Below the pieces are notes generated by a model. The model did no database searches. It saw nothing but the letters and a program-made list of their open reading frames with translations, and was not told the DNA's origin. A stretch of DNA of 35,062 nucleotides, taken from a bacterium. Lineage in GTDB: Bacteria; Desulfobacterota; Desulfocorpusculales; Desulfocorpusculum. Made by a program: the position numbers and the translations under genes. Within the stretch, counting starts at the first letter, position 1, and the number at the start of each line of letters is the position of its first letter. The stretch covers positions 1-35,062 of the forward strand of contig JBBFLE010000026.1 of NCBI GenBank assembly GCA_037481695.1. Direction: 5' to 3'. Below are positions 13,397-35,062 of the stretch, one piece after another.

Positions 13397-14452
13397 TCAG
13401 CTCAACCTTCCCACCGCCGGGCTGGGCCTTCGGCCATAGTCGCGAACAGTCGCAACAATGGCCCTCATGTTCTCCTCTTTAATGTCTGGCCACAGATCAC
13501 AGCCAGGCCAAACCGCATCAACTCCCCCATCAATGTTTTTCTTGATGCCTGCTATTGCCTGCTCGACAGTGGTTTCCTCCTTGCATGGAAGGGCAAACAC
13601 ATCAAAATTCCCAAAGAGAAGAACATCGTTTCCTAGTTTCTTTCGGGACTCACTTAGGTTGTTCTTGATATCGACACTTATTGCGTCTGCCCCACAATCG
13701 TTCATCATCTCGATGATGAGGTCCGTTGCCCCGCATATATGAAGGATCTTGGGCGATTTCCAAGAAGAGAGTATCCTTTGCATCCTAGGCTGGATAATGG
13801 CCTTCCATGTCCTAGGACTAAGAAGATCTGTCCCGGTGCCCATCTCCCTTAGAGTGATATAATCAGCTCCTGCGGCCTGCAGGGCCTGCCCAATCTTTAT
13901 GCACATGTCCGTCAGTTTATCTAAGACTGCCTCCACCTTTTCCTTCTCCTTGAATACGCCTTTGAGAAGGATGTCCAACTCCAATACTTGTCCGGCCTGT
14001 GTGAAAGGACCTAGCTGCCAGGCACCCACAGGATACTCTGGGGCCTCTTGCTTCACGATCTTTATGGCCTCAGGGATTACTGTGATCGGCCACTTTTGCG
14101 CTATGTCCTCTGGGATTTCTACTTCTTCCATGGTCTTCCAGCGTTTCTCAGGGATAGTTGGGTAGAGTATATCTTCGGAGTCCTCATAGAGGCTAATATT
14201 GTTACCCAATGCTTGTGATTCCCAGCACATGTCGAAAGGGACCACCACCGAGTCAAAACCGAACATCTTGCTGGAAAGGATCGCAGATCGGGCCAGCTTC
14301 ACCGGGTCTCGGTGGATCTGAGGGAAGCGGTAACCCAGTTGTTTGATGGCAGGCATCAGTACCATTCCCATACCACTGAAAAAAGGCATTGTGTCCAGGG
14401 GTTCTTTGCGGAAGAGTCTATCCAATCTTTCTCTGGGGGTCATCTCTGGCAT
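13397..14452 (-). CDS. MtaA/CmuA-family corrinoid methyltransferase, copy 1
   Basis: UroD-fold zinc methyltransferase of the MtaA/MtbA/CmuA group, which moves methyl groups between a methyl-corrinoid protein and a thiol or tetrahydrofolate-like acceptor. Zinc ligands are visible: His238-x-Cys240 in KILHICGATD and Cys318 in VWPGCDLWPD. The protein has 351 residues; the start follows an AAAGGAG site. It aligns without gaps over nearly its whole length to the protein at 31546-32604, about three quarters identical by eye, and both end in RPSPAVGRLS followed by UGA. The neighbours are a DUF2284 protein upstream and a DUF2284 remnant downstream. Which acceptor it uses is unknown. Confidence 0.9.
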   Translation of the reverse strand: MPEMTPRERLDRLFRKEPLDTMPFFSGMGMVLMPAIKQLGYRFPQIHRDPVKLARSAILSSKMFGFDSVVVPFDMCWESQALGNNISLYEDSEDILYPTIPEKRWKTMEEVEIPEDIAQKWPITVIPEAIKIVKQEAPEYPVGAWQLGPFTQAGQVLELDILLKGVFKEKEKVEAVLDKLTDMCIKIGQALQAAGADYITLREMGTGTDLLSPRTWKAIIQPRMQRILSSWKSPKILHICGATDLIIEMMNDCGADAISVDIKNNLSESRKKLGNDVLLFGNFDVFALPCKEETTVEQAIAGIKKNIDGGVDAVWPGCDLWPDIKEENMRAIVATVRDYGRRPSPAVGRLS

Positions 14453-14619
14453 ACGTCTACTCCTTTCTGTGGCAAAACAGCTGAGTTATATCTAAAAATT
14501 ACACGTAAGAACCCCCCAAGGGAATCATCCCAGAGACGATTTTTGGGAGAGTCATGGATGATTTTGTGCAAACAAGATCGCCAATCAAAGAGACCTAGAA
14601 TCTCTGCTTTGGAACAATC

Positions 14620-15126
14620 TCACTCTAGCAGCACCATTACATACCAAGCAGGCAGTAGTCTTCCATCAGGAGCGAACTCCACCTTGAACCCCAAGGGTTC
14701 GAGCGTCTTTGCTATATCCATCCCCAAGGCATCCATAGACGGACGGGCCAGATGGGGAAACCGACAAGGCTCCGGATACGCACAAGATTCGCACTGCACA
14801 CAAAGGGCCAGCGCGAAGGCAAACCCGGCGCCAAAGGAAAGCATGGCCTCCTTCTCGATGGCCAAGGCCACATCCTGCCCCACCTTCGGATCTGTTGCCT
14901 TTATCACCAACGCCTTCCTGTACCTTGCAAAGGCATCCATGAACATCTCGGGGGATAGACCCAGATGGGGTGGGCAGGTCCAGTACCTCCCCCAACGGCT
15001 GCAGCCGAAACGGCATTTCAGGAAAGAACGCGGATCGAAAACCACCTGCGCTGTATCAATCAGTTTAGCCTCAGATGCACCCAGCCCTATGGCCTTCCCA
15101 ACCAAGGATTCGTAATCCCACTTCAT
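14620..15126 (-). CDS. DUF2284 putative metal/Fe-S binding protein, copy 1
   Basis: A 168-residue cysteine-rich protein of the DUF2284 family of predicted metal-binding proteins. Cys38 and Cys42 lie in FLKCRFGCSRWGRYW, Cys51 in WTCPPHLG, and a second cluster holds Cys109, Cys112, Cys115 and Cys121 in CVQCESCAYPEPCRFP, looking like ligands of an iron-sulfur cluster. The function is unknown; family members are frequent near corrinoid methyltransferase genes of anaerobes. A second intact copy is at 27571-28164 and a broken copy at 13080-13330. The UGA at the end coincides with the end of the paralogue and is taken as a true stop. Confidence 0.88.
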   Translation of the reverse strand: MKWDYESLVGKAIGLGASEAKLIDTAQVVFDPRSFLKCRFGCSRWGRYWTCPPHLGLSPEMFMDAFARYRKALVIKATDPKVGQDVALAIEKEAMLSFGAGFAFALALCVQCESCAYPEPCRFPHLARPSMDALGMDIAKTLEPLGFKVEFAPDGRLLPAWYVMVLLE

Positions 15127-15249
15127 TTGCTAGCACCTTTCATTGCGCAGAGAAACTTTCAAATCCTTGTTTGCCATTGTGGACAAACTTTAATGAGAAA
15201 TGCCTCAATGGAACAGAAGACCCCTGCTTTGAAATGGGGAGGACCCAAG

Positions 15250-16035
15250 TCAGCACGACATAATGCTTTGTCTCAGGCTCTTTTTTAGCTTCAAGAATTC
15301 TTGGCTTTCTGAATCGCGCGGTCTCGGCAGCTCCACCTTGACATGCCCTTTGATGCGTCCTGGGTCCTTCTCAAACAAGAGTATTGAATCTGCCAGGATG
15401 ATTGATTCCTCTACGTCATGGGTCACAAAAATGATGCTCTGGGAAAGTTCCTGCCAGATCTTCAAGAGGAGTTTGTGCATTTCTTGCCTTGTTTGAACAT
15501 CAAGTGAAGCAAAAGGCTCATCCATGAGCAAAATCCGTGGTTTCATAATCAGGACTCTAGCAAGGGCCACCCTCTGTTTCATCCCCAAAGAGATCTCTCG
15601 AGGTAGGTAATTGCCAAAATTCTCCAGACCAACCAGGGAAAGGAAGTGATTGACCTCGCTCCTTAAGGCCCTGCCATCCTTTCTATTGCGCCTGATTCCA
15701 AATGCCACGTTTTCCCACACTGTAAGCCAAGGAAACAGGGCGTCCTCCTGAAAGATGACACATCTGTCAGGACCAGGGCCGCTTAGCGGCTCCCCGCCCA
15801 TGCGTATTGCCCCCCTGGAAGGCGAATCGAAACCAGCAATGAGCCTCATGAGAGTTGTCTTTCCGCAGCCACTCGGCCCCAAGATGCAGATAAGCTCGCC
15901 TTCCAAGCAGCAGAAGCTTATATCCTCCAAAACAGTGGACCTGGTGTTATTTACTACAAACACCTTTCCAACTGCATCGACTTCCAGAAGAGGCATTGGG
16001 CAGTCTGGAGATCTCACCTCATTAGCAGAGTTCAT
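15250..16035 (-). CDS. ABC transporter ATPase, SsuB/TauB/NrtD type
   Basis: ATPase of a nitrate/sulfonate/taurine-type importer (261 residues). Walker A GPSGCGKTT is at 53-61, the Q-loop in CVIFQEDALFPWLTVWENV, the signature in REISLGMKQRVALARVL and Walker B in RILLMDEPFASLD, with the switch His in FVTHDVEESI. Its ATG overlaps the stop of the permease gene (ATGA). Substrate is not set by the ATPase sequence. Confidence 0.92.
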   Translation of the reverse strand: MNSANEVRSPDCPMPLLEVDAVGKVFVVNNTRSTVLEDISFCCLEGELICILGPSGCGKTTLMRLIAGFDSPSRGAIRMGGEPLSGPGPDRCVIFQEDALFPWLTVWENVAFGIRRNRKDGRALRSEVNHFLSLVGLENFGNYLPREISLGMKQRVALARVLIMKPRILLMDEPFASLDVQTRQEMHKLLLKIWQELSQSIIFVTHDVEESIILADSILLFEKDPGRIKGHVKVELPRPRDSESQEFLKLKKSLRQSIMSC

Positions 16036-16847
16036 CCCGCCACCTTGATCCTTCTGACACTTTTCATACCAAAGCTAAGAGTCTTGACAAGAAGCAAGTC
16101 GCTGGCCCTTCCCACCAGGGCGATCATTATCATCCCCACGATTATCACATCTACCTGACCTAGCATCCGCGCGTCCATGATCACCGCCCCCAGTCCATCT
16201 GGCACGCCGGTAAGTTCCCCCAACACCAGATAAGCCCAAGCAACACCCAAGCCCAGCCTCAACCCTGCGAGTATGTGGGGCATGGTTGCTGGGATAAGGA
16301 TTCTAAAGACCAGGCCAAGCCCTTTCACTCCCATCATCCCAGCGGCCTGGATGAACATGGGATTAACCTGAGCAGCGCCCGCTGCAGTATTGAGGTATAT
16401 TGGGAAAAAGGCTGCCAGGGCTACCAGAAACACGGTTGTCTTGGTACCTATCCCAAACCATATCATGGCAAGAGGAAGCCACGTAATCCCAGGGATAGCC
16501 CTCATTCCATTCACCGTGAGACTCAAGGAACTGTGGACCCACCACAAACGACCGGACATGAGCCCCAGAGGAAGCCCCATCAGCACAGCACAGGTGAACC
16601 CCAACCCCACCCTGGAGACGCTAGCCAAAGTGTCGCTCAGAAAACGACCCGCGAACCGCGCCGAGCCTGCAGGCTGCAATACGTACGCATCCATGGTCTT
16701 CAGGATCTCGGAGGGAGACGGTAGCAGATACGGCGGCACCATCCCGTCATAGGTCACCAGCGTCCAAGCCACCAACAAAAAGCAGGGCATGATGAATGCA
16801 ATGATATAGTTCGAATAGGGTTTGCCGGGGCCATTGAACACAGACAA
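16032..16847 (-). CDS. ABC transporter permease, SsuC/TauC type
   Basis: A 271-residue inner-membrane permease with six or so helices. The family loop is visible at GLVFRILIPATMPHILAGLR, the EAA-like motif, followed by LGLGVAWAYLVLGELTG. The first helix begins near residue 15, and VPPYLLPSPSEILKTM is the usual SsuC segment after it. The start is TTG at 16847, five bases after GAGGTGA; a GTG two codons in is possible. It sits ten bases downstream of the binding-protein gene and is coupled to the ATPase gene. Confidence 0.91.
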   Translation of the reverse strand: MSVFNGPGKPYSNYIIAFIMPCFLLVAWTLVTYDGMVPPYLLPSPSEILKTMDAYVLQPAGSARFAGRFLSDTLASVSRVGLGFTCAVLMGLPLGLMSGRLWWVHSSLSLTVNGMRAIPGITWLPLAMIWFGIGTKTTVFLVALAAFFPIYLNTAAGAAQVNPMFIQAAGMMGVKGLGLVFRILIPATMPHILAGLRLGLGVAWAYLVLGELTGVPDGLGAVIMDARMLGQVDVIIVGMIMIALVGRASDLLLVKTLSFGMKSVRRIKVAG

Positions 16848-16856
16848 TTGTCACCT

Positions 16857-17825
16857 CTACTGTGTAGTGGATTTGATTTGCCGTACAAAGTTTAGGTCGA
16901 AGAGTTCCTCATAATTGGGCTGACGATCTATCAGGCCAAGGGTTTTCATCCTCTCCCCCAAGGCCATGGCCCTCTTGATATAGGATTCGTCCATCTTCCA
17001 TTCCAGCTCCATATTGGAGGAGGCCTGCTCGAGTACTTTGAGTGGGGTCCCAAATTCAGAGGCTTTGAGCAACCACTCTTGGGGATTTTTCTTAAGATAT
17101 TCAGTGGCCCTTGCATGGGCTGTGATCAACCTCAGGACAAGGTTGGGATTTTTCTCTATTGTCTCTCGACGCACAATCATGCCCGCATTGATAGCCCCGA
17201 TACTGTCATCATAGTAGGGATAACTCAGGATTCTGCCGTAACCTTCTACAACGGCAATGCTAGGAAAGGGCTCTCCTGACAGGAAGGCGTCGATGCTGCC
17301 CCTGGCCAGGGCTGTTCCCATGTCAAAGAAATCAACACGGGTCAATGTTACCTCCTTACTGGGGTTGAGACCCGCACGGGTTAAAGTCTCTCTTAGCAGG
17401 ACCTCGTGCATGGTGCCAGGCACGTAGCCTATTTTCTTGCCTCGAAGGTCACTGGTCGTCCTTATATCGGCATGTTTCCCCACTACCAAGGCAGAGCACT
17501 TGTTACACAGGGACGCCACTACCACTAAAGGCTCGCCACGGGATGCAGCCTGTATGGCATAAGGTATGGTTGTGCCGCACATCTCCAGGCTGCCGGCAGT
17601 CAAGGCGATTTTCATATCCGCGGGATTCGTGAAGGGGAAGATCATAACTTTCACCCCTGCGTCCATAAACTTCTCATAGAAAAAGGGCGCAATAGTCTGG
17701 GCGGTCTTCCACGTTCCTATCCTGAGTTCATCCCCTAAGGCCGCTGAGATCGCAGCAACCAGAACCCAAACAAAGATGACGGCAATCCAGAAAAACCGCC
17801 TTATCAATGAGGTAATTGACCCCAT
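16857..17825 (-). CDS. Periplasmic substrate-binding protein, SsuA/TauA/NMT1-like
   Basis: The 322-residue protein has an N-terminal signal (RRFFWIAVIFVWVLVAAISA, residues 9-28) and the two-lobed NMT1/SsuA fold: ELRIGTWKTAQTIAPFFYEK, ADMKIALTAGSLEMCGTTIP, DLRGKKIGYVPGTMHEVLLR and ARGSIDAFLSGEPFPSIAVV. It begins after a strong GAGGAGG site. It has an unusual CNKC (residues near 107-110) inside an otherwise standard lobe. The gene stands between an UroD-family protein and the permease. The pathway context suggests a small methylated or sulfonated compound, but the ligand cannot be read from sequence. Confidence 0.88.
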   Translation of the reverse strand: MGSITSLIRRFFWIAVIFVWVLVAAISAALGDELRIGTWKTAQTIAPFFYEKFMDAGVKVMIFPFTNPADMKIALTAGSLEMCGTTIPYAIQAASRGEPLVVVASLCNKCSALVVGKHADIRTTSDLRGKKIGYVPGTMHEVLLRETLTRAGLNPSKEVTLTRVDFFDMGTALARGSIDAFLSGEPFPSIAVVEGYGRILSYPYYDDSIGAINAGMIVRRETIEKNPNLVLRLITAHARATEYLKKNPQEWLLKASEFGTPLKVLEQASSNMELEWKMDESYIKRAMALGERMKTLGLIDRQPNYEELFDLNFVRQIKSTTQ

Positions 17826-17849: not shown

Positions 17850-18941
17850 TTAAACACTTGCTGACCAGGCAGAAATGCTCTCATAATCCCCAAATTCACG
17901 CGCCGCTTGCACCATGGCCTCTATATGGCCCAGGGGATCCCCGCGATGGATCGAGCAGGTGGCCATAAAGACGTAACCACCCCCAGGGGCAGCATGGCTA
18001 ATGCATCTTCGGGTCTCCTCCCGAATTCGCTCTTGTGGTCCAGGGTGTAGCACATGGGGTATGTCTATTCCGCCAAGGATCGCACTCCTGTCACCCCACA
18101 GGCGTTTTGCCACTCTCAGGTCGCAATTTTCAGCAAACTGAAATCCCACAATGCCGGTTTCAAGCGCGGCATCTACCAAGGGCCGATACCTTTCTAACGT
18201 GAAGTTGCCATGGGGATGAAAAACGACCCCCAAGCCGAGTTCGCTTGAGGCCGTGACTATTCTTCTCAGGTTTGGGATTGTGTAAGTCAGGTAAAACTCA
18301 GGCCTGATGAAAACCGGGCCGTCTGTTGCAGAGGCCAAGAAGACGAAATCTACACCCACCTTAGAAAGATGTCGCAAATGGCTGATCGCTATCTCAGTGG
18401 AGAAGGCTATCAAGTCTGTAGCAAATTTGGGATCTTTGACGAAGTCTCTGGCCAAGTTGTGTGTCCCGCGAAGGAGACAAGCCCTTGTCACAGGACCTTC
18501 AAGATTGGCGGCAATGGCGACCTTAGCCCCTATGCGTCGCTTGACAAGTTCATAAGCCTTTAGCACTCCGGGCAGTCTTCCGTCTTTGTCCATCTGTGGG
18601 ACCTTCGCACGGAGAAGCCTGTTTTTTTGCTCCAAAGGATGTCTTACAACTGTGGGTATGCCTTGGGAAGGAAAGGCGGTTTTGCCTCCAAGTGCATCTG
18701 CATCCAGTCCAAGATCATGGATGCTTCCCACGACGCAATCTTGTCCAAACCGACGCCAGCTCATAATCACAGCATGTGCGGATTTTTCGGCATGATAACC
18801 TCCGTTGGGGCCACCAGCACAGACCTCCCAAGTGGTAAATCCGGCCACCTCCATCCCCAAAGTCAAGTCCCGCAGGAAAATCGGGACTCGGTCGGGCTGT
18901 CTCCCCGCAAGCGCGGTCATAATCCGATCTCTGCTATTCAC
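17850..18941 (-). CDS. UroD-family methyltransferase-like protein, divergent
   Basis: A 363-residue member of the uroporphyrinogen decarboxylase/MtaA superfamily. It starts NSRDRIMTALAGRQPDRVPI, the classic N-terminus, and ends with GGGYVFMATCSIHRGDPLGH and IEAMVQAAREFG, equivalent to the C-terminal zinc-Cys segment (Cys329). The motif that is HxCG in MtaA is His242-Pro-His244-Gly, so ligands would be His, His and Cys. Start is GTG at 18941, overlapping the stop of the 70-residue gene (GTGA); a longer frame to 19100 lacks a ribosome-binding site and covers that gene. It is followed by the ABC transporter operon, so it may act on the imported compound. Confidence 0.82.
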   Translation of the reverse strand: MNSRDRIMTALAGRQPDRVPIFLRDLTLGMEVAGFTTWEVCAGGPNGGYHAEKSAHAVIMSWRRFGQDCVVGSIHDLGLDADALGGKTAFPSQGIPTVVRHPLEQKNRLLRAKVPQMDKDGRLPGVLKAYELVKRRIGAKVAIAANLEGPVTRACLLRGTHNLARDFVKDPKFATDLIAFSTEIAISHLRHLSKVGVDFVFLASATDGPVFIRPEFYLTYTIPNLRRIVTASSELGLGVVFHPHGNFTLERYRPLVDAALETGIVGFQFAENCDLRVAKRLWGDRSAILGGIDIPHVLHPGPQERIREETRRCISHAAPGGGYVFMATCSIHRGDPLGHIEAMVQAAREFGDYESISAWSASV

Positions 18942-19183: not shown

Positions 19184-19432
19184 TCATCCTTTCAAGAGGG
19201 TGATTATTTGCTCTGTCTTGTAGACCCTCCCTTGGGCCACAAGGACCCCGTTTATTGCGAGAGCAGGGCTTAGGGGCAGACCATATTTCTCACGGACTTC
19301 TTCAGATAGGACCCATCTTTTTACCACCTCTGCTTGGACACCGGACGCTGCAACTGCCTCCTTGGCGTTTTCCAAAAGCTCATTGCATTTCTCACATGGT
19401 GGTTCAAGGCCTATAATCTCTATCAGGAACAT
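19184..19432 (-). CDS. Small thioredoxin-fold protein with CEKC motif
   Basis: An 82-residue protein with a thioredoxin-like layout: a first strand FLIEIIGL, the redox pair CEKC at 13-16, helix, and a cis-Pro-type segment LSPALAINGVLVAQGRVYK. Glutaredoxin-like/thioredoxin_3 proteins of this size act as small disulfide carriers. The ATG follows an AAAGGAGG site. It lies between the CobW gene at 19494 and the 70-residue gene. It is one of six small thioredoxin-fold proteins in the window. Confidence 0.8.
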   Translation of the reverse strand: MFLIEIIGLEPPCEKCNELLENAKEAVAASGVQAEVVKRWVLSEEVREKYGLPLSPALAINGVLVAQGRVYKTEQIITLLKG

Positions 19433-19493: not shown

Positions 19494-20639
19494 CTATGCA
19501 ATAGTCTCCCGTAGGAGATATGGCGGTTGCGGATACGCAGGGCTGAAACACTGAAGTTCCAGGATCTCGGCGATGAGGCCGGCCCTTTCTGTCTCCGCAT
19601 GCAGCCTCTCCCTTACTAGCCCTTCTAAGTCTTCTGGGGGCATCCTTACCCTCGCATTGATGATAAGGCTTCCCGTAGGTACCTCTCCTAGAACTTCCCC
19701 TCCCAGGGAAACCGCCGCTGCCAGATGTGTTATGTTGGCCCATATGGCCTTACCCGAACTCGTTAGGACAAACTTCAGATGCCCAATTTCTGCGTTTCTT
19801 CTCTTGAATTCCTCTTTCAGACCCTCGGCCAATGACCGCAGGAAACAGGTGGGGTCAAACGACCTATCTGAAGCGAGTTTGACCGCTGCATTTAGCCAGC
19901 CAAGGACAGCCTCGGCAGTGGCGTAACGGTCGTAGTCGAGCTCTCGAAGGACCTTGTTGGCCCCTGGGATGCCTGAAAGAAGGAGGTCCAACCACTCATC
20001 TACCCCATCGCCTTGTTTGGCAGAGATGGCCACTGATCTTGTATGTGCGAACCTTTCCTGAATGGCATCTTTGAGCCTCGTGGCCTCTCGCTCCGCAATA
20101 AGGTCCACCTTGTTGAGCACGATGACATCTGCCTCCTCCAGCTGTTTGCGAAACAGGTAGGCCACCTCTTCAGGAAATAGGCTATCCGTTTCTCCCAGCA
20201 GCAACTCCCTGAGCCTTTCAGGGTCAACCATGATGGAGAAGGGGGCGAACTTGAAGGTGTCTCTGTAATGGATCTTGATGGGATTGGCCACAGCGGCCAC
20301 AAAATCGGTGCAACTGCCCACCGGCTCGCCCATGATCACGTCAGGATCGTGGGCCAATACCTTCTCCACGCCTTCTATGAGTTCGTCGAACTTGCAACAA
20401 AAGCAACCCTTCACCACCTCCTCCACAGGCACTCCCATACCTCTGAGCATCTCCGTGACGATGGCCGTGTCCACGAGGTTCTCGGTCTGGTCATTGGTGA
20501 TTATCCCCACGCGATGGCCTCTTTGGATGAGGCGCTTGGCAAGGCCTGCCAGGGCCGTGGTCTTCCCAGAGCCCAGGAAGCCTCCGGCGAATATGAGCTT
20601 CACGGGTTTTGTGGATGTGATCTTCTTGGGAGATTCCAT
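19494..20639 (-). CDS. CobW/COG0523-family GTPase, copy 1
   Basis: A 381-residue G3E GTPase. Walker A GGFLGSGKTT is at 19-28, the metal motif GCFCC (CxCC) at 78-82 and the base-recognition NKVD in VIVLNKVDLIAER. Family members are metal chaperones that load zinc or cobalt into client proteins. The C-terminal 150 residues are not the usual CobW_C domain, and the region after Walker A is unlike copies 2 and 3, so it is a separate subfamily. It starts two bases after the PadR regulator stop, with an AGGAGG site inside that gene, and is presumably co-regulated with it. Confidence 0.87.
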   Translation of the reverse strand: MESPKKITSTKPVKLIFAGGFLGSGKTTALAGLAKRLIQRGHRVGIITNDQTENLVDTAIVTEMLRGMGVPVEEVVKGCFCCKFDELIEGVEKVLAHDPDVIMGEPVGSCTDFVAAVANPIKIHYRDTFKFAPFSIMVDPERLRELLLGETDSLFPEEVAYLFRKQLEEADVIVLNKVDLIAEREATRLKDAIQERFAHTRSVAISAKQGDGVDEWLDLLLSGIPGANKVLRELDYDRYATAEAVLGWLNAAVKLASDRSFDPTCFLRSLAEGLKEEFKRRNAEIGHLKFVLTSSGKAIWANITHLAAAVSLGGEVLGEVPTGSLIINARVRMPPEDLEGLVRERLHAETERAGLIAEILELQCFSPAYPQPPYLLRETIA

Positions 20640-20640
20640 C

Positions 20641-21051
20641 TCAGGACCTCCTGGGATCAGTTTCCTGGGTCTTGGCCTTGATCCAAAACACGCTCCTTGC
20701 GTCTTGGAAGAATCGCCCCATCCACTTGGCCTGGAGTCTCAGGGTCTGGAGCCAGTAGGCCAGGCACTGCCTGCCATCCTGTGTGAGATAGTATCTCCTC
20801 CTGGCAGGGCCGGGGTCTCTAGTGTCCCACTGTGTTCGCAAGATCCCCCGATTCTCCATGCTCTTCAAGTGGCGATAGATCCCGGCTATGTTCAAAGAGA
20901 GGTCCAGATCCTGGAAACGAGTCTGGAGGATCTTGTTGATCTCGTATCCGTATACACCCTCCTGCTTGTAGACTGTCAGGAGTATCCATGGTGCCACATT
21001 GCGCCTCATGGCCTTGCCTGAGCAGGGACAGTCCTGGAAGCGTATGCCCAT
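20641..21051 (-). CDS. PadR-family transcriptional regulator with N-terminal CPC motif
   Basis: A 136-residue winged-helix regulator. The PadR core is visible: APWILLTVYKQEGVYGYEIN, then IAGIYRHLKSMENRGIL and the wing ARRRYYLTQDGRQCL. Before it lies a Cys-Pro-Cys (residues 8-10), a possible metal- or redox-sensing site. The ATG at 21051 has GAGGAG five bases upstream and is preferred over an in-frame ATG eight codons earlier. It is followed immediately by a CobW GTPase gene. A palindrome overlapping its promoter suggests autoregulation. Confidence 0.85.
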   Translation of the reverse strand: MGIRFQDCPCSGKAMRRNVAPWILLTVYKQEGVYGYEINKILQTRFQDLDLSLNIAGIYRHLKSMENRGILRTQWDTRDPGPARRRYYLTQDGRQCLAYWLQTLRLQAKWMGRFFQDARSVFWIKAKTQETDPRRS

Positions 21052-25398: not shown

Positions 25399-25422
25399 TT
25401 GCACCCTCCTTGTCAGACGTGT

Positions 25423-26457: not shown

Positions 26458-26606
26458 GTGATACCTCCTTGTTTACACGTAAGGCCTTAATCAACATGAG
26501 CCATCCCATCTCTGTGATCCGTAAGAATACACCACCTCCTTTCTTTCAAATGCCTAACCATCCGTGTGCACTTGATTCGCGAGAGTCTAGGCTAGGCCTG
26601 TGCTCA

Positions 26607-26630
26607 CTGCGCCTTGATTCCTAGGCGCAG
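26607..26630 (-). repeat. Hairpin spanning the CobW copy 3 stop codon
   Basis: CTGCGCC and GGCGCAG (26607-26613 and 26624-26630) pair around the TAG stop. There is no T-run. It could be a processing or attenuation site between the two halves of the operon; about 150 gene-free bases follow before the Sec-methyltransferase, including an isolated AAGGAGG at 26535-26541 with no good start codon. Confidence 0.35.
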
Positions 26631-27559
26631 AGACATTCTTTGAGCCGTTCAATGATTTTGGTCTGCTCCACTCTCCATCCCACGAAGGCCAGTCGGGTCT
26701 GGCCAGATCCTTGCAGGCTTACCCATTCGGTCTTACCTCCCACATGATTGATGAAGCAAAGCCCATTTTCCAAAAGAGCAAAGCCTTTCACCCGGTAGAG
26801 CTCATAGGGAAGCTGGCTCAGAAATTTCCTGAAGCACTCCTCTCGCAGGGGGACATCTCCTTGGAAGGCAAAGCTCACAAAGCCCATGCCGTGAGCATCT
26901 TCATGGCTTTCGTGCTCATGGAGCCCCTGCAGCCTAGATTCCAACAGATGATCCTCAGATACGCTCCAGAGAACTTGAGGATCAACTTTGCAATGGTGTG
27001 TGGGAACCACTGCTGTGCCAGGATTGTTTTCTTGGATTTCACGCAAGAAAACGGGTATTTTCTCAGGCGACAAAAGATCCACCTTGTTTAGGAGCACCAG
27101 ATCAGCCGCGCGTATTTGGTTGAAAAAAAGCGGACCTAGATGCTCCCGATTTTCCCAAAAGTCTGCATCCACAACGGTAATGACTTTCTGCACAAACAGG
27201 GATCCAGATGGTTCTTCGTTTTTCAGCACGTCCAGGATTTCCACAGGATCTGCCACTCCCGTGGCTTCTATGAGTAAACGCCTGGGGTCGAAAGTCTTGA
27301 TTATTTCTCTGAGGCTCCTCAAGAGATCTCCCTGGATAGTGCAGCATATGCATCCGTTGGTAAGCTCCACCACGGGTGTGCCACCATTTTTGAGCAGCTC
27401 TCCGTCAATACCTATCTGTCCGAACTCGTTTACCAAGACAGCTGTGGAAGAAAGGTCCCCTGGCCAGCTTAGAATGTGGCGAAGGAGCGTGGTTTTTCCT
27501 GCTCCCAAAAACCCACCTATGAGGGTCACTGCGCATGGAGCCGAATTCTTCCCAGACAT
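26621..27559 (-). CDS. CobW/COG0523-family GTPase, copy 3
   Basis: A 312-residue G3E GTPase with all classic motifs: Walker A GGFLGAGKTT (15-24), NEFGQIGIDGELL, the metal motif GCICC (69-73), LIEATGVADP, NKVD in LVLLNKVDLL and a histidine-rich loop HEHESHEDAHG (214-224). The C-terminal CobW_C domain ends in CLCA. It most resembles the YjiA/YeiR-type zinc chaperones. The ATG at 27559 lies eleven bases after the DUF2284 stop; the in-frame extension to 27718 is a shadow of that gene. As the gene before the Sec-methyltransferase, it is a candidate to load its metal. Confidence 0.92.
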   Translation of the reverse strand: MSGKNSAPCAVTLIGGFLGAGKTTLLRHILSWPGDLSSTAVLVNEFGQIGIDGELLKNGGTPVVELTNGCICCTIQGDLLRSLREIIKTFDPRRLLIEATGVADPVEILDVLKNEEPSGSLFVQKVITVVDADFWENREHLGPLFFNQIRAADLVLLNKVDLLSPEKIPVFLREIQENNPGTAVVPTHHCKVDPQVLWSVSEDHLLESRLQGLHEHESHEDAHGMGFVSFAFQGDVPLREECFRKFLSQLPYELYRVKGFALLENGLCFINHVGGKTEWVSLQGSGQTRLAFVGWRVEQTKIIERLKECLCA

Positions 27560-27570: not shown

Positions 27571-28164
27571 TCACTCCACCAGAATGATTCCGTAATAATG
27601 GAAAAGGTCGCGCCTTTTTTGGGCCAGCCTGGGTCTGATGCCCAAGTTCTGCAAGGTGCCCAACAGGTCTATGGAGAAAGACTCCACTGAGGGCCTTTTC
27701 TCCTGGGGGAAACGGCAATCACCCGGGTATGCGCATTCTTTACACAGCCCGCAGGTTTCCCCCACCAACCCAAAAGCCTTGTAGTAGCCTTCCAAGAAAA
27801 GGGATCTCTCCAGGCTCACCGTGCCCTTCCAGCATCGCACTTGCTTGGCACGCTTGCGGGCATTGTCCAAATAGAAATCCGGACAATCCTGAGTTCCCAC
27901 AAGCAGAAGGGCTTCCCGGAATTCCCCCAATATGGACCTTGCAGTTTCAACCCCGGGTGTGGCAGGCGGACAACACCAGTTGGTGTTGTACTTCTTACAT
28001 CCATAACGGCATTTCAGATGTACCCACTGGCTTACCAGGATCTTTTCAGCCGGAAACGGAACCAGCAGCTCCAGACCGTAGCGTCTGGCGTTCTGGGTCA
28101 GACATCTCAATAGCTTCCTAGGAATTCCCTTGTGCTCCAAAGGGATGACTTTTCCATTTCTCAT
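27571..28164 (-). CDS. DUF2284 putative metal/Fe-S binding protein, copy 2
   Basis: A 197-residue paralogue of the protein at 14620-15126. Cysteines are at 52 and 56 (HLKCRYGCKKYN), 64-65 (NWCCPPATP) and 138, 141, 144 and 150 (CGLCKECAYPGDCRFP). The C-terminus YYGIILVE matches the other copy's VMVLLE, so the ends are homologous. It lies between the small cysteine-rich protein and CobW copy 3. Function is unknown; repeated pairing with corrinoid methyl-transfer genes suggests electron transfer or metal handling for them. Confidence 0.9.
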   Translation of the reverse strand: MRNGKVIPLEHKGIPRKLLRCLTQNARRYGLELLVPFPAEKILVSQWVHLKCRYGCKKYNTNWCCPPATPGVETARSILGEFREALLLVGTQDCPDFYLDNARKRAKQVRCWKGTVSLERSLFLEGYYKAFGLVGETCGLCKECAYPGDCRFPQEKRPSVESFSIDLLGTLQNLGIRPRLAQKRRDLFHYYGIILVE

Positions 28165-28199: not shown

Positions 28200-28535
28200 T
28201 CAGCCTCTTTGACCGGCCAGATCAAACAGAATTCTCACATCCCGAGCAACCGCCATGTCCATGGCCACCTCTGCTGCTTTTATCACAGCCAAAGGTACGG
28301 GGCAGGAAGCATGGCAACCAGCACTTTCAGCTGCCCGGTAGACCGGGTTGCTGGTGATAGGGGCAAAGAGCCCTTTCATGGCTATGGTAGTGAGCCGTTG
28401 TCCCATACTTTTTATGTGCTTGCACTCAGATCTAATCTCCAACCCAACGGACCACCTACCTTCTCTCCTGGCGCAAACATCACACAAGAAACCGCAGACA
28501 CCAGGCTCCACGGTTACCCTAATAGGATCTCCCAT
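28200..28535 (-). CDS. Small cysteine-rich protein (probably DUF6951-like)
   Basis: A 111-residue protein beginning MGDPIRVTVEPGVCGFLCDV and containing SECKHIKSMG and a C-terminal CHASCPVPLAVIKAAEVAMD. The mix resembles a family of small proteins seen next to corrinoid activation genes of anaerobes, which I believe is DUF6951, but the name is from memory. Cysteines (Cys14, 18, 21, then 42, 77 and 81) may bind a metal or cluster. I chose the ATG at 28535; a longer frame overlaps the end of the RACo gene. It lies 36 bases before the DUF2284 gene. Confidence 0.75.
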   Translation of the reverse strand: MGDPIRVTVEPGVCGFLCDVCARREGRWSVGLEIRSECKHIKSMGQRLTTIAMKGLFAPITSNPVYRAAESAGCHASCPVPLAVIKAAEVAMDMAVARDVRILFDLAGQRG

Positions 28536-28579
28536 CTCACAAAGGCCCTTGAGAGAAGCCTCTCCTCCCTGCGTGTTTC

Positions 28580-30637
28580 TTACTTCTGATGCAGTATCTC
28601 TGGCCTTACTATCCCCTCCAGATGGGGATACTTGTCTTTCATGTGAGGGATCTGCATACACTCCATGAACTGTTGTTGGAAGTCTTTCTCCACGGTGAGT
28701 TCTATGTATTCCACGTTTCTGGCTACCCAGTTGGCCTCAACCCTCTTCTCCCTGTTGAGAAGACACGCCCTGGCTCCGTCCCCTGCGGCGTTGCCTACAG
28801 AGATTATCCTGTCAATCTCGCAATCCGGGAAAAGCCCCATTACCAAGGCCTTGGTTCTGTCCACGTGGGTCCCAAAAGCACCGGCGATCTTCACCGAATC
28901 CACATGTTCCACTCCCATTCGCCTCATCATAAGTTTGCATCCAGCATGAAGAGCCCCTTTGGCCAGCTGGATTTGGCGCACATCCCTTTGAGTAATGACT
29001 ATGTCCTTACCTATACTTGTCTCTTCAGCCCAGGCCAGAACGAACTCGGGCTGATTGTTCTCGGGATTTCTCCTGAAACGAGGGGATTTCTGCTCCTTGT
29101 TGAAGACGCCGCTCTTGGTGATTACCCCGGCCGCATACAACTCCGCCAAAACATCCAAAATGCCCGAGCCGCAGATCCCTTTGGCCTTCATCTCTTTGGG
29201 CTCTGAGTAACTTCTCCAAGCGTCCCGGCCTATGACCTTGTAGTCCACTTCATGAGTGTCTGGGTCTATTTTGATGCGTTCAATGGCCCCAGGGGCCGCA
29301 CGCATGCCAAACAGTATCTGCGCCCCTTCCAAAGCCGGGCCTGTGGCGCAAGAAGAAGAGATCATCTTGTGTTTATTGCCCAGCACCAGTTCTCCATTGG
29401 TGCCTATGTCTATTATCAGAGCCATTTCATCCTTCTTGTACGGCTCTTCTGCCACCAGCACCCCCACGTTGTCTGCTCCTACAAATCCCGCCTCATTGGG
29501 AAGCACATGCACATAAGCCGAGGGGTTCACCTTGAGGCCCAGATCCCTGGCCTTGATATCCAGGCTATGGTGGATAACAGGAGGAAATGGTGCCAGTCCC
29601 ACGAACTGGGGATCCAGCTGGAGAAGAATGTGGTGCATGGCGGTGTTTCCCACTATGGTCACATCCTCCACATCTTCCCTAGAGAGCCTCAGGTAAGTCC
29701 TGCCTTCCTCAGGGACCTCCACCCACTCCTCCTGGGCATCGGCCCCCTTGCCTTTCTTGAGTTTCTTCTTAGGGGGGTGAGTGCCCTGCACGGCCTGATC
29801 AATGACCCAGTTGAGCCCTTCCACAATATCCTCACTCATGCGTTTGAGGCCATCTTCGGTGGTCATGTGGAAGGTTATCCGAGACATCACGTCTTCCCCG
29901 TACTTGCACTGGGGGTTCATGAGGGAAACCGTGTCCAGCACCTCCATGGTGTCCAGATTGCAGAAATAGCCGGCCACGGTTGTGGTGCCGATGTCTATGG
30001 CGATACCATAATGGGCCTCGCACCTGCCAGGCCTGACGCGTATTATCTCCTTGTCCATCCATATGCTCACCGTGACCTTCCACTCACCCTGCCTCAGAGC
30101 CCCCGGGAGCTGCCTCAATGTCAGAAAGTCGATCCCCAGATTGGTCAAGCCGTACAACCTCTCCAGCTCTCTGCAAACTCTCTCGAAATCCGCTGTTGGC
30201 TCCTCGAAAGTAGGAGGCTCCACCTCCACGTAGTAGGTCTTCACGGCCGGATTATGTTGTATTTCAATGGCCCTGGCAGCCTTGCTGACCACTTGTTTGC
30301 CTGCCCGGGACTCCTCTGGCACAAACACCAGAAGGTCCCCTTGCACCTTGGCGCAACAGGCCAGCCTGTAGCCAGCCCCCTTTTCCTCTGCGTTTATGAA
30401 CTTCTCTTCTTCCTCCTGCCAAGGGCTTGCGTTATCCATGCTGGAATGAATGCCAAATTTCTGGAAAAAACCTTCCTCAATGCGGACCTTGCACTTCCCG
30501 CACACCTTCTTTTCCCCGCAAAGGGTCTCTATGTCTACCCCAAGGACTCTCGAGGCCTCTATGAGGGTTGAATCCTTCTTAACAGGGCCTCTTCGTCCTG
30601 AAGGCTGAAATATGACCATGGCCTTGGCTTCGTCCAT
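28580..30637 (-). CDS. Reductive activator of corrinoid proteins (RACo/RamA-like, DUF4445)
   Basis: ATP-dependent reductase that returns inactive cob(II)alamin on corrinoid proteins to cob(I)alamin. The 685-residue protein has an N-terminal 2Fe-2S ferredoxin domain (Cys40, Cys46, Cys49 and Cys94 or 95), a linker, and a C-terminal ASKHA ATPase domain with GIAIDIGTTTVAGYF, VTIVGNTAMHHILL, LIIDIGTNGELVLGN and KIAGAFGTHVD. The ATG at 30637 is six bases after GGGGAGG; a GTG two codons earlier is an alternative. It follows the corrinoid protein and MtaA genes, its probable targets. The gene end has no overlap with the small Cys-rich gene. Confidence 0.94.
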   Translation of the reverse strand: MDEAKAMVIFQPSGRRGPVKKDSTLIEASRVLGVDIETLCGEKKVCGKCKVRIEEGFFQKFGIHSSMDNASPWQEEEEKFINAEEKGAGYRLACCAKVQGDLLVFVPEESRAGKQVVSKAARAIEIQHNPAVKTYYVEVEPPTFEEPTADFERVCRELERLYGLTNLGIDFLTLRQLPGALRQGEWKVTVSIWMDKEIIRVRPGRCEAHYGIAIDIGTTTVAGYFCNLDTMEVLDTVSLMNPQCKYGEDVMSRITFHMTTEDGLKRMSEDIVEGLNWVIDQAVQGTHPPKKKLKKGKGADAQEEWVEVPEEGRTYLRLSREDVEDVTIVGNTAMHHILLQLDPQFVGLAPFPPVIHHSLDIKARDLGLKVNPSAYVHVLPNEAGFVGADNVGVLVAEEPYKKDEMALIIDIGTNGELVLGNKHKMISSSCATGPALEGAQILFGMRAAPGAIERIKIDPDTHEVDYKVIGRDAWRSYSEPKEMKAKGICGSGILDVLAELYAAGVITKSGVFNKEQKSPRFRRNPENNQPEFVLAWAEETSIGKDIVITQRDVRQIQLAKGALHAGCKLMMRRMGVEHVDSVKIAGAFGTHVDRTKALVMGLFPDCEIDRIISVGNAAGDGARACLLNREKRVEANWVARNVEYIELTVEKDFQQQFMECMQIPHMKDKYPHLEGIVRPEILHQK

Positions 30638-30771: not shown

Positions 30772-31443
30772 CTACACCTGACCTGCTGCCCTCATCTCTC
30801 TGAGCCTTCCTATCATCTTTATGGCTTCCTCCACGGCATTTCCTGCAGATTCGGCGTATCCGTCGGCTCCAAAGAGCTTGGCCACATCCTTGGTCACTGG
30901 AGCCCCGCCCAACATGATGGCCACGTTGGGGTTTTTTTCTTTGATCATCTGAATGACCTTGCGCATCCCCAACATGGTGGTGGTCATCATGGCGGACATG
31001 GCCACGATTTCCGCATCTGTTCTGAGCTGCTCTTTGACAAAGTTCTCCAGGGGCACGTCCCTGCCTAAGTCGTGCACTGTGAATCCAGCCACGTCGAACA
31101 TCATCTTGACCAGGTTCTTCCCTATGTCGTGCACGTCCCCCTGAACCGAGCCTATTACCACTTGAGCCTTGGACTCGCCCTCTTTCTTGGGTACATGCGG
31201 CCTGAGAATTCCCAGACCAGCATACAGAGCATCCGCGCACATTAAGACCTCGGGCACAAAGTACTCATTGCGTTCATAAAGCCCACCCACTATTTCCATA
31301 CCGTGGGCCAGTCCGTCCATGATGGCTTCCAAGGGGTCGTAGCCGTTGTCCACCACTGCTTGGGCCGCTTCTTTGACCTGATCCTCGTTGTAATTCACAA
31401 CCCCATCGCTCAATGCCTTGAGCAGCTCTTCCTTGTTTGCCAT
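30772..31443 (-). CDS. B12-binding corrinoid protein (MtaC/MtbC family)
   Basis: Methyl-carrying corrinoid protein of 223 residues. An N-terminal helical cap (residues 1-90) includes DPLEAIMDGLAHGMEIVGGL and YFVPEVLMCADALYAGL. The Rossmann B12 domain follows with the base-off motif DVHDIG (103-108), His105 being the lower cobalt ligand, then MMFDVAGFTVHDLGRDVP, MLGGAPVT and FGADGYAESAGNAVEEA. It would accept a methyl group from a substrate-specific methyltransferase and pass it to MtaA. The start follows AAGGAGG. It ends with TAG where the family normally ends. Confidence 0.95.
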   Translation of the reverse strand: MANKEELLKALSDGVVNYNEDQVKEAAQAVVDNGYDPLEAIMDGLAHGMEIVGGLYERNEYFVPEVLMCADALYAGLGILRPHVPKKEGESKAQVVIGSVQGDVHDIGKNLVKMMFDVAGFTVHDLGRDVPLENFVKEQLRTDAEIVAMSAMMTTTMLGMRKVIQMIKEKNPNVAIMLGGAPVTKDVAKLFGADGYAESAGNAVEEAIKMIGRLREMRAAGQV

Positions 31444-31545: not shown

Positions 31546-32604
31546 TCAGCTCAGACGGCCTACAGCAGGACTCGGCCTTGCTCCGCCATATTCCCTGGTG
31601 GTTTTCACTATGGCCAGCATGTTTTCCTCTTTTATGTCCGGCCAAAGGTCGCATCCCGGCATAACCGCATCCACCCCAGAGTCTATATTGACTTTTATGG
31701 CAGCCACCGCCTCTTGTACGGTGGTCTCAGCCTTGCAAGGCAGGGCGAAGACGTCGAAGTTGCCGAACAACAAGACATGGTTGCCGAGCTTCTTCCGCGT
31801 CTCCACCAGGTTATTTTTTATGTCCACACTGATGGCATCGGCTCCGCACTCGTTCATCATCTCCACCAGGGGATCCGTCTGCCCGCAGATGTGAAGAATT
31901 TTGGGTGATTTCCAGGCAGCCAATATCCTGGTCAATCGAGGCTTTATCATCTCACGAAAGGTCTTAGGACTAAGTAGATCAGCGGCTACTCCGGGCTCCC
32001 TCAGCGTGATATAGTCCGCACCTGCAGCCTGAAGGGCCTGCCCGATCTTGATGATCATTTCTGTGAGCTTGTCCAGGAGTTGCTCCACCTTGTCTCTTTG
32101 CTTGAACACGGCCTTCAGAATCATGTCCAGCTCCAGGATCTGCCCTGCCTGGGTGAAAGGTCCCAACTGCCACGCCCCTACCGGGTATTCAGGGGCTTGC
32201 TCCTTGATGATCTTTATGGCCTGGGGAATCAGGGGCATCCTGCCCAGTTCCATGATGTTCTCTGGGATTTCCACCTCATCCATGCTTTTCCATCTCTTCT
32301 CGGGTATTGTGGGATAAAGAATGTCCTCCGAATCCTCATAAAGGCTTATCTTGTTTCCCATGGCTTCAGACTCCCAGCACATGTCATAGGGCACCACAAT
32401 GGAGTCGAATCCCATGAGCTTGCTGGACCAGATGGCTGACTGAGCCAGGCGGTTGGCATCGGTGTGGACTTGGGCGAAATGGTATCCCAGCTTCTTTATG
32501 GCAGGCATCACCACCATCCCCATTCCACTGAAAAAGGGCATGGTGTCCAGAGGTTCCCTCTTGAAAAGCCTCATGATTCTCTCTTTGGGGGTGAACTGGG
32601 TCAT
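31546..32604 (-). CDS. MtaA/CmuA-family corrinoid methyltransferase, copy 2
   Basis: A 352-residue UroD-fold zinc methyltransferase with His238-x-Cys240 (KILHICGQTD) and Cys318 (VMPGCDLWPD). It aligns with the copy at 13397-14452 from residue 1 with hardly a gap, which also fixes the start at 32604, 10 bases after AAAGGAG, rather than at 32703. It sits directly upstream of the corrinoid-protein gene and is its likely partner. Both copies carry the same C-terminal tail RPSPAVGRLS. No substrate-specific MT1 such as MtaB, MttB or MtmB is in the window, so it may itself act on the methyl donor, as the CmuA-like fusion proteins do. Confidence 0.92.
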   Translation of the reverse strand: MTQFTPKERIMRLFKREPLDTMPFFSGMGMVVMPAIKKLGYHFAQVHTDANRLAQSAIWSSKLMGFDSIVVPYDMCWESEAMGNKISLYEDSEDILYPTIPEKRWKSMDEVEIPENIMELGRMPLIPQAIKIIKEQAPEYPVGAWQLGPFTQAGQILELDMILKAVFKQRDKVEQLLDKLTEMIIKIGQALQAAGADYITLREPGVAADLLSPKTFREMIKPRLTRILAAWKSPKILHICGQTDPLVEMMNECGADAISVDIKNNLVETRKKLGNHVLLFGNFDVFALPCKAETTVQEAVAAIKVNIDSGVDAVMPGCDLWPDIKEENMLAIVKTTREYGGARPSPAVGRLS

Positions 32605-32788: not shown

Positions 32789-34750
32789 TCACAGGGCCAC
32801 AGTGGCCACGTAATAGCATCTAAGGCATCTTTCGGCCTCGGCCACGGCCTCCTGGACCCCCAAAACAGACTCTACCTCAACCCAAGAGCTGCGGCGCACC
32901 TCTGGAGGGAGTTTGGACGGCTCTCTGCGCTGCTGCTGTTCAACCCTTGGAATCACCTCTTGGGGGTCATAAACCCCTATGGTCTTGAAAAGCCTTTCAA
33001 AACCGGCATCTTCTGATTGCTGCAATGCCTGGCTGTTTAACATTCGGTCAATGCTCAGGGCCGCTTGCCTGCCCCCAGCACAAGCCGCCACAAGGGTATC
33101 TGGCCCTGTCTGACAGTCCCCTGCGGCAAAAACCTTGGGACGGCCTGTGCGATATGTTGATTCATCCACTCTCACGGTTTGCTGTGGTGTGAAAAGTTCC
33201 TCGAGTCCTGCCAGGGCCGATGAATCCACAACCTGTCCCACTGCAAAAACCGCTATGTCGCACTCGATTACAAACTCCGATCCCGGGATGGGAATTGGGC
33301 GTGCTCTTCCCCTTTCGTCAGGCTCTCCCAATTTCATCTCAATGCACTTGAGTCCCACAACTCTGCCATTCTTGGCCAAGATCTTCACAGGCGAACTCAG
33401 GTATTTGAAGACCACCCCCTCCTGCTCTGCATCGTGGAGTTCCTCCGGGTCTGCGGGCATTTCCTTGGGAGTTCTCCTATACACCACGCAAACATGTTCT
33501 TTACCGGCTCTCAAACTGGAGCGCGCGCAGTCAATGGCAACATTGCCTCCTCCGATGACCGCTACGTTGTTGCCCTCCGGGTACGGATCCTTCCCTTGGT
33601 TGATCTCACGGAGGTAATCCAGTCCTTGGAATACTCCTCTGTACCCCTCGGTCTCTCCATGGATTTTCATGGGGATGCTCTTGTGGGCTCCTATGGCCAG
33701 AAAAACAGCATCGAATTCCTGCTCAAGCTGCCATAGGGTGATATCCTCTCCAATGCTTCTGTTGTATTGGAATTGAACCCCCAGTTTTTCAAGGCCCTCC
33801 AGTTCCTGGGGAAGGATTTGGCGAGGAAGCCTGTACGGAGGGATGCCTATGACCCCCATGCCTCCCGGTTCAGCCAGCCTTTCAAAAACCGTAACTCGAT
33901 GCCCTTTCCTGGCCAGCTGATAAGCGCAGGCAATGCCTGCAGGGCCGGCGCCCACCACGGCCACCTTCCCTGTCTTGGGGGAGGGCACTATTTCCCATTC
34001 AATTCTGCTCCCAAGCTCCAGGGCCTGGTCAGCCACAAAACGTTTCAAAGCTTTTATGGCAATAGGTTTGTCCACATTGGCCCTTCTGCAGTGGCTTTCA
34101 CAGGGTCGAAAACAGACCCTTCCCAGAACGCCCGGCAAGGGCAGCCTTTCTGCAATCACGCCCAGGGATTCGGCAAACTTGGCCTCCTTTATCTTTTCCA
34201 CGTACCTGGGCACGTCCAGATGGATAGGGCAGGCTTGCATGCAAGGGGCCGTGAGCCGGGAACAGTAATTTGCTTGACTTACTTTTTTTTCACCCCTTAG
34301 AACCTTCAAAAAATCCTCTCTAAAAAACCTGAGGGCATGCAATAGAGGGATCGGGCCTGTCTTGCCTATGCTGCATTTGCCCGCCTCGCGGATAGCCTCT
34401 GCTGCTGATTCCAAGAACTCCAGGTCTTCTTCGCTGGCATCCCCGTTGAGTAGGTCCTGGAAAACATCCAAGAGTTCGTTGTATCCCGTGCTACAGTAAT
34501 TGCACTTGTCACACTTCTTGGATTCCTCCCTCACAGCCTCCAGATGAGCCCGACATAGATCAACAATGTCTACCCCTTCAGATCTGATCACCAAGCCTTT
34601 CCATCCGGCCAGGGCCTTGATTTCCTGTGTCTCGGAAAAAGATTGGGCAAACTCGAGTCCTACGGCCGGTTCGTACTCTTGCGGCCCCTTACCTCGGTTG
34701 TCCACCACAGATCCGGCCCAAGAACTGAAAAGCACTGCTGAGGAGCTCAT
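32789..34750 (-). CDS. GltD-like NAD(P)H oxidoreductase fused to NuoF-type Fe-S region
   Basis: A 653-residue flavoprotein. Residues 75-130 hold a NuoF-type 4Fe-4S region with Cys80, Cys83, Cys86 and Cys126 (KKCDKCNYCSTG, GKCSIGKTGP). Residues 160-240 form a GltD-type double 4Fe-4S domain (CSRLTAPCMQACPIH, GRVCFRPCESHCRRAN). From residue 262 on come the FAD and NAD(P)H folds (KVAVVGAGPAGIACAYQLA, NNVAVIGGGNVAIDCARSSL, KVFAAGDCQTGPDTLVAA). It moves electrons between NAD(P)H and Fe-S carriers. As the gene before the MtaA, corrinoid and RACo genes, it could supply the electrons for corrinoid reduction; this is inference. Confidence 0.92.
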   Translation of the reverse strand: MSSSAVLFSSWAGSVVDNRGKGPQEYEPAVGLEFAQSFSETQEIKALAGWKGLVIRSEGVDIVDLCRAHLEAVREESKKCDKCNYCSTGYNELLDVFQDLLNGDASEEDLEFLESAAEAIREAGKCSIGKTGPIPLLHALRFFREDFLKVLRGEKKVSQANYCSRLTAPCMQACPIHLDVPRYVEKIKEAKFAESLGVIAERLPLPGVLGRVCFRPCESHCRRANVDKPIAIKALKRFVADQALELGSRIEWEIVPSPKTGKVAVVGAGPAGIACAYQLARKGHRVTVFERLAEPGGMGVIGIPPYRLPRQILPQELEGLEKLGVQFQYNRSIGEDITLWQLEQEFDAVFLAIGAHKSIPMKIHGETEGYRGVFQGLDYLREINQGKDPYPEGNNVAVIGGGNVAIDCARSSLRAGKEHVCVVYRRTPKEMPADPEELHDAEQEGVVFKYLSSPVKILAKNGRVVGLKCIEMKLGEPDERGRARPIPIPGSEFVIECDIAVFAVGQVVDSSALAGLEELFTPQQTVRVDESTYRTGRPKVFAAGDCQTGPDTLVAACAGGRQAALSIDRMLNSQALQQSEDAGFERLFKTIGVYDPQEVIPRVEQQQRREPSKLPPEVRRSSWVEVESVLGVQEAVAEAERCLRCYYVATVAL

Positions 34751-34752
34751 AT

Positions 34753-34944
34753 CTAACGCTCCACCTTCTTGAGCTCAGCAGCCTTGTCCCAGCGAACCCT
34801 TAGCTGTTCTGCGAAATCCGGCCAGAGTTTGAAGAGGGGATGTGTAGGCTCCTTGGGCAGCTCCTTGGTCTCATCAAAGACCGCAGAGGCCAGGAAGGCA
34901 TCAGCCGCTGCGACAGCCGGAATCACACGGGGGGCTCCGGCCAT
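34753..34944 (-). CDS. Uncharacterised ORF at the right edge, 5' end unresolved
   Basis: A frame of at least 63 codons ends in TAG at 34753, three bases before the GltD-like start, so it is probably part of the same operon. From the ATG at 34944 it reads MAGAPRVIPAVAAADAFLAS and continues to THPLFKLWPDFAEQLRVRW. Upstream the frame stays open and protein-like (CDQILAAFFFHDLVFTGP) to an in-frame TAG at 35011-35013 and a TGA at 35026-35028. No start codon with a ribosome-binding site lies in between. It is either truncated, frameshifted or starts at an unusual codon. I do not recognise the family. Confidence 0.45.
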   Translation of the reverse strand: MAGAPRVIPAVAAADAFLASAVFDETKELPKEPTHPLFKLWPDFAEQLRVRWDKAAELKKVER

Positions 34945-35062
34945 GGGCCCCGTGAAAACCAGATCGTGGAAGAAAAAAGCGGCCAGTATCTGATCACAGG
35001 GTCGTAGATGCTAGTTGAAGAATTTTCATTCAAGGGTTTGTTTTTCTGGCATTTTATGGGTT

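Follow-up and report, generated by a model that had tools for sequence, protein, structure and literature searches.

What joins the genes that fill most of one strand of this contig, and which reaction do they serve? The window, that is, the whole stretch of DNA analysed here (35062 bp), is a complete contig of a 4.1-Mb genome assembled in 52 contigs. Every gene recognised from 34750 down to 13397 lies on the minus strand with intergenic gaps of less than 200 bp, and Pfam and NCBIfam scans assigned about 25 neighbouring genes to this region, among them genes for four UroD-family proteins (g3, g27, g10, and g22) and six thioredoxin-like proteins. The scans confirmed all the parts that a first-pass annotation, made from the letters alone, had listed on this strand, and also bore out its statement that no recognised substrate methyltransferase (MT1) is present, as no Pfam or NCBIfam match to an MtaB, MttB, MtmB, or MtbB type was found among the window proteins scanned. 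Beyond that list, we found an MtrH fragment, an SMC-like ATPase (g15), the full set of six thioredoxin-like proteins, a DUF6951 protein, a Zn-ribbon-like protein, and a selenocysteine (Sec) at a zinc-ligand position. A promoter and terminator scan performed no better than shuffles.

Two parts expected of a corrinoid methyl-transfer system are present. g4 (30772..31443; minus strand, as are all genes of the region) is a corrinoid protein with B12-binding and B12-binding_2 domains (pyl_corrinoid, 203 bits), and g6 (28580..30637) is RACo, the ATP-dependent reductive activator of corrinoid protein (RACo_C_ter, 6.6e-96, with Raco_middle, RACo_linker, and Fer2). The FAD/Fe-S NAD(P)H oxidoreductase g2 (32789..34750; Pyr_redox_2, Fer4_20, and NADH_4Fe-4S) is likely the electron donor for RACo. 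g3 (31546..32604) is an MtaA-like UroD methyltransferase (URO-D, 6.6e-59; MtaA 4ay7, 3e-47) in which the His-Cys-Cys site, read on the alignment, is intact. The same site is intact in the second MtaA-like UroD, g27 (13397..14452; 2.1e-56), which is 75% identical to g3. The divergent UroD-family protein g22 (17850..18941; URO-D, 4.9e-46) reads His-His-Cys at this site and has a small ORF (18938-19150) just upstream. On the other strand and outside this region, a thioredoxin-reductase-like protein and two CobO adenosyltransferases are encoded at 10218-12648 (plus strand); the reductases of related clusters are 28–37% identical to the former. A cobalamin riboswitch (9444-9658, minus strand) precedes genes that resemble, by eye, a B12-type ABC importer (6568-9360, minus strand).

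At its upstream end the region is cut by the end of the contig. g1 (34753..35062) is a C-terminal fragment of MtrH, of the methyl-H4F/H4MPT:corrinoid methyltransferase family; a Pfam search with this short fragment alone gave no match, and by eye it shares C-terminal motifs with the MtrH of three related loci (L040, L048, and L075). The sole MtrH of the genome, an N-terminal part, runs off the end of another contig (C20); ahead of it lie genes assigned by eye to a PAS-type sensor and a LuxR-type response regulator, similar to those of relatives. Since no exact overlap was found between the last bases of C20 and of the window contig (C26), the join is a presumed one. The operon probably runs on across the contig break into MtrH, which would connect methyl transfer with a carrier of the folate type. 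A carrier methyltransferase of the MtrH/MeTr type is thus represented here, split between C20 and C26 by this presumed join, as well as in 15 of 31 related loci of the main type. An acetyl-CoA synthase family gene was also found in the genome. The other contig end is an assembly break too, at a repeat, because the first letters of the contig belong to a partial 23S rRNA gene, which is followed by 5S rRNA (1-1102, plus strand).

g10 (25423..26457) encodes a UroD/MtaA-fold protein (URO-D, 3.9e-46) with an in-frame UGA (25524-25522) at residue 312, the residue that corresponds in the alignment to the third zinc ligand of MtaA. When 38 related loci were queried by tblastn, 37 reached this position, and UGA was found in all of these except one, L067, which has Cys. 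The mean identity of relatives to the window was 76% for the body of the protein and 72% for the tail beyond the UGA. A SECIS-like hairpin with conserved pairing, AUGUUCC GGU GGAACAU (25492..25508), follows the UGA; 97% of the cells compared were paired, versus 17–54% when the hairpin was slid, and synonymous codon difference was 13% in the hairpin codons versus 57% in the body. An Rfam search gave no match within 23800-26500. tRNA-Sec (anticodon TCA) and SelA were found in the genome. We rejected the UGA as a true stop because both the tail and the hairpin are conserved. g10 thus has a conserved UGA with a Cys homologue and a hairpin close downstream, as expected of a selenoprotein, and Sec at residue 312 is strongly supported by these comparisons. 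The families PF01208 and TIGR01463 are absent from a selenoprotein review (PMC13188914), against which novelty was judged; the Sec-bearing UroD is a selenoprotein family without an entry in the selenoprotein lists examined, chiefly that review. Annotation pipelines that read the UGA as a stop would lose the C-terminal tail of g10.

The AlphaFold model of g10 (pLDDT 91.5) has MtaA as its closest solved fold (4ay8; Z 39.0, rmsd 2.2, 324 residues aligned), indicating a UroD/MtaA fold, and the score of g10 against NCBIfam mtaA_cmuA was 141.9 bits, below the curated score of 235.4. The zinc ligands of MtaA are H237, C239, and C316 in the 4AY8 numbering. By analogy, Cys233 and Sec312 of g10 fall at two of these three positions and would be close to each other. 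In a tree of 75 UroD sequences, 46 proteins including g10 formed one clade with a support of 1.0. The His of the first ligand position is replaced by Phe in 45 members of this clade and by Leu in the remaining one, the Cys of the second position is retained, and the site matching residue 148 of g10 has His in place of the MtaA Asp. Outside the clade, His-Cys-Cys is retained in all sequences but g22 and one row that is gapped there. As a result of the loss of the first-ligand His to Phe, the site in g10 reads Phe-Cys-Sec instead of His-Cys-Cys, and zinc may be absent altogether.

The thioredoxin-like proteins encoded around g10 include a partner and two further selenoproteins. The CAAC protein g11 (24994..25398) follows g10 in the same orientation in 30 of the 31 main-type loci; by sequence, it is Cys-bearing and has no hairpin of the g14 type. 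In two genomes (G305 and G016), a Cys form of the UroD is fused to a CAAC thioredoxin domain and adjoins a CobW gene, and genes for an MtmB-like, a corrinoid, and an MtaA-like protein lie alongside the fusion in G016. Synteny and fusions point to g11 as the partner of g10. A PDB sequence search with g11 gave nothing meaningful; the TALE rows look spurious. The HUIPC protein g13 (24218..24502; UGA at 24460-24458) scored 143.9 bits against NF047660 (cut-off 105), and the CLPC protein g12 (24499..24885; 84 bits) and the UIAC protein g14 (23880..24179; UGA at 24131-24129; 44 bits) were below this cut-off. The UGA of g14 is kept in 14 homologues and its hairpin is 94% paired. The hairpin after the UGA of g13 rests on the slid control, because only eight sequences were available and shuffles were not exceeded. 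With tRNA-Sec, SelA, conserved UGAs, and hairpins following them, the three selenoproteins proposed in the first-pass annotation are well supported. The remaining two are Thioredoxin_3 proteins, g17 (22296..22553; 6.7e-19), which belongs to the MTH895/ArsE family (TIGR00412, 71 bits; cut-off 62), and g21 (19184..19432; 6.1e-15). A TSCPD-domain protein is encoded near the thioredoxin-like genes in four loci (L055, L058, L061, and L077).

Three CobW-family or related GTPases are encoded in the region: g9 (26621..27559; cobW, 1.5e-48, with CobW_C), g18 (21248..22282; cobW, 1.6e-39), and g20 (19494..20639; 1.6e-24). g18 is the CobW most tied to g10, being found in 25 of the 31 main-type loci, and subfamily 13 of COG0523 (CobW) is a known neighbour of corrinoid methyltransferases (PMC2770081). 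The DUF6951 protein g7 (28200..28538; 9.3e-30) has the conserved residues C15, C39, C75-H76, and C79. Its AlphaFold model (pLDDT 90) weakly matched IscU, which filled the 13 top rows with a best Z of 5.8; an IscU/SufU-like fold, weakly suggested by this model, would agree with a role in Fe-S handling next to RACo and the DUF2284 metal-binding protein g8 (27571..28164; 3.4e-41). A second DUF2284 protein, g26 (14620..15126; 1.4e-28), is encoded further downstream, and the remnant of a third DUF2284 gene (13202-13297, minus strand) is 56% identical to g26 over 32 residues and degenerate beyond. PDB sequence searches with DUF6951 and DUF2284 gave nothing meaningful. g15 (22890..23870) is an accessory SMC-head ATPase of 326 residues (SMC_N, 4.7e-47 over 326 aa) without a long coiled coil, and its homologues are conserved in several loci including those of Bacillota. 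The small Zn-ribbon-like protein g16 (22595..22879) has CxxC pairs and occurs in 15 of the 31 main-type loci, and g19 (20641..21051; 4.2e-13) is a PadR-family regulator.

Whether these genes form one system was addressed by synteny. The 38 related loci, from Desulfobacterota and Bacillota, retain large blocks in the order of the window and comprise 31 main-type and seven divergent loci. Among the 31 main-type loci, RACo and DUF6951 were each found in 22, the corrinoid protein and DUF2284 in 20, MtrH, MtaA, Zn-ribbon, and Trx_3 proteins in 15, and thioredoxin reductase in 13; these counts are lower bounds because many loci end at contig breaks, and they are conditional on g10 because g10 was the route to the loci. 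In most loci (the exceptions are L041, L050, L061, and L066), agreement of gene order with the window greatly exceeded that of shuffles, and many genomes have blocks joined to one another. The corrinoid protein, RACo, the MtaA-like UroDs, MtrH, and g10 belong together across genomes. The first-pass annotation had taken the region for one candidate system, to be refuted by synteny broken between every sub-cluster; no such pattern appeared over the 38 loci, and the view that the region is a single system is supported. A gap of about 200 bp before the PadR gene, and the few loci in which the PadR/CobW/ABC part accompanies the rest, would suit several unrelated operons that share one strand by chance. 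However, order is kept across phyla, g20/g21 co-occur with g10 in five loci (L042, L044, L046, L047, and L055), and homologues of g27 and g3 adjoin in L064 and L066, which makes a chance arrangement highly improbable overall and largely refutes it for g3–g18. At E <= 1e-60, a g10 homologue is rare, occurring in 9 of 395 sampled genomes of the phylum including this one, and that of the ninth genome is only 36% identical. Since homologues occur in the cultured sulfate reducers Desulfospira joergensenii DSM 10085 and Desulfofundulus thermobenzoicus DSM 14055, the g10 system is testable.

In the seven divergent loci, genes for a corrinoid protein, an MtmB-family MT1, and a g10 homologue stand in a row, without MtrH. 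Pyrrolysine was ruled out for this MtmB-family gene, which is an open ORF without TAG. Such loci raise the alternative of a methylamine or quaternary amine pathway, in which g10 would be the MT2 that takes the methyl group from a corrinoid charged by an MtmB-type MT1 encoded elsewhere in the genome. A non-pyrrolysine MtmB homolog, MtqB, demethylates tetramethylammonium (PMC13044021), and an MttB-like ORF was recognised by eye in L072. No MtmB was found beside any of the 31 main-type loci, where MtrH occurs instead, and we regard an amine pathway as unlikely here. The exchange of partners bears on g10 itself: as the carrier-side partners change (MtrH in 15 of the 31 main-type loci, or MtmB-family MT1 in the seven divergent ones), while g10 is retained, usually together with g11 and CobW, g10 is likelier to serve a constant methyl partner than one specific substrate. 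It is thus probably the constant enzyme on the acceptor/donor side. The first-pass annotation had suggested that the UroD-family proteins may be the substrate-specific ones; this is less likely for g10, and g3 and g27 with their His-Cys-Cys sites remain candidates.

From these gene contents and alignments, we give about an even chance to the region being a conserved corrinoid methyl-transfer system with a Cys-Sec UroD methyltransferase. In such a system, g10 would carry out methyl transfer between the cobalt of the corrinoid and a partner with a soft atom (S, Se, or a metalloid), with the Sec selenolate acting as a metal ligand or a nucleophile. Both the softness of the Cys-Sec pair and the presence of thioredoxins suggest sulfur, selenium, metalloid, or redox chemistry; we know of no role for coenzyme M in these bacteria. 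The CAAC protein and the other thioredoxin-like proteins may hold the Cys-Sec pair reduced, the UroD enzymes may receive their metal, probably zinc, from the CobW GTPases, and MtrH would exchange the methyl group with a folate-type carrier and hence with the Wood–Ljungdahl pathway. This explanation is weakened because no more than about half of the loci have MtrH, which here is divided between two contigs, because the lost His ligand may mean that zinc is absent, and because the module is separable and the counts are conditional on g10; in L041, L053, and L077, g10 is found with thioredoxin-like and CobW genes and no RACo upstream. If the corrinoid methyl-transfer explanation is true, Sec would have a new use, as a metal-ligand residue of a corrinoid methyltransferase, which raises the question of what chemistry needs it, and anoxic sediments may hold a methyl route that has so far gone unrecognised. 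It is also possible, though we lean against it, that the Phe-Cys-Sec clade consists of redox methyltransferases and not of zinc S-methyltransferases. The methyl group would then pass between corrinoid and Sec, and a Cys-Sec selenosulfide would be reduced by the dedicated thioredoxins. If true, this would be a new kind of corrinoid chemistry.

A partner of metalloid type deserves separate consideration. In the metabolism of methylated arsenic or a similar metalloid, the Cys-Sec site would bind the soft metalloid and the importer or an aquaporin would transport it. The importer g23–g25 (15250..17825; substrate-binding protein, permease, and ATPase with NMT1, BPD_transp_1, and ABC_tran) is SsuABC/Sao-like, and the best-scoring models for DUF2284 are those of ArsM-fusion selenoproteins. 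For g17 and g21 the nearest family is ArsE/MTH895, and aquaporin-family genes occur in L055, L058, and L096. ArsM and a second ArsM-like methyltransferase are encoded on the same strand in the cluster of G214; this cluster (L089, contig C153) also encodes a GcvH-related protein and DGC-motif proteins, as read by eye. However, ArsM was found in this one genome only, neither ArsR nor an arsenite pump was seen in the window, and every Sao match was below its NCBIfam cut-off: the permease scored best against SaoP (144 bits; cut-off 295) and the ATPase against SaoA (242.8; 360), with 76.4 bits against SaoX (300), so that the importer does not qualify as that of the SAO system. The hints from ArsM and the aquaporins are thin, and a metalloid role appears improbable. 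The importer had been called dedicated, for which synteny gives weak support: importer genes were found in L047 and L091, with substrate-binding protein and permease 23–36% identical to those of the window.

Known systems share several parts with this locus. The type 1 mlp gene clusters of Kountz and Balskus (PMC10418091) have in common the link to selenium, and the salvage of methyl-selenium or methyl-sulfur compounds proposed for them is a further explanation, in which the UroDs would demethylate methyl-selenols or sulfides for Se/S reuse. In favour of this explanation, the region combines a corrinoid protein and activator with several Mlp-like UroDs, g3 and g27 have His-Cys-Cys sites, three selenoproteins are nearby, and ClMlp2 demethylates methylcobalamin using selenide (PMC10418091). 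In contrast, the described clusters have no H4folate methylase (PMC10418091), whereas MtrH is conserved in the relatives and, by the presumed join, present here; their Mlps nearly always have His-Cys-Cys, which g10 does not; and MtrH, the Sec UroD, many thioredoxin-like proteins, CobW, DUF2284, and DUF6951 distinguish the present locus. Salvage is conceivable but doubtful. The methanol methyltransferase operon of Desulfofundulus kuznetsovii/salinus has corrinoid, UroD, MtrH-type, ferredoxin-domain, and P47K (CobW) genes, as here, but has MtaB as MT1, and the parts of its account seen describe no Sec UroD or thioredoxin-like set (PMC11206085). g13 is by score a member of the HUIPC thioredoxin-like selenoproteins (NF047660; PMC13188914), of which g11, g12, and g14 fall below the cut-off; a corrinoid context is not described in those portions of the published accounts that were examined. 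The Sec-assisted organometallic (SAO) system is a multi-selenoprotein operon too, with a resembling importer, and the portions of its accounts examined do not name a corrinoid system. MtqB (PMC13044021) resembles the MtmB-family MT1 of the divergent loci, which likewise has no in-frame stop and is not encoded in the window. A Sec-bearing UroD is absent from the descriptions, as far as seen, of the mlp clusters, the Desulfofundulus operon, MtqB, and the HUIPC selenoproteins. The methylcobamide:coenzyme M methyltransferase MtaA of Methanosarcina mazei (4ay7/4ay8) is the nearest solved relative of g3; g10 has the same fold and keeps Cys239, but differs from MtaA in carrying Phe at the first zinc ligand and Sec at the third.
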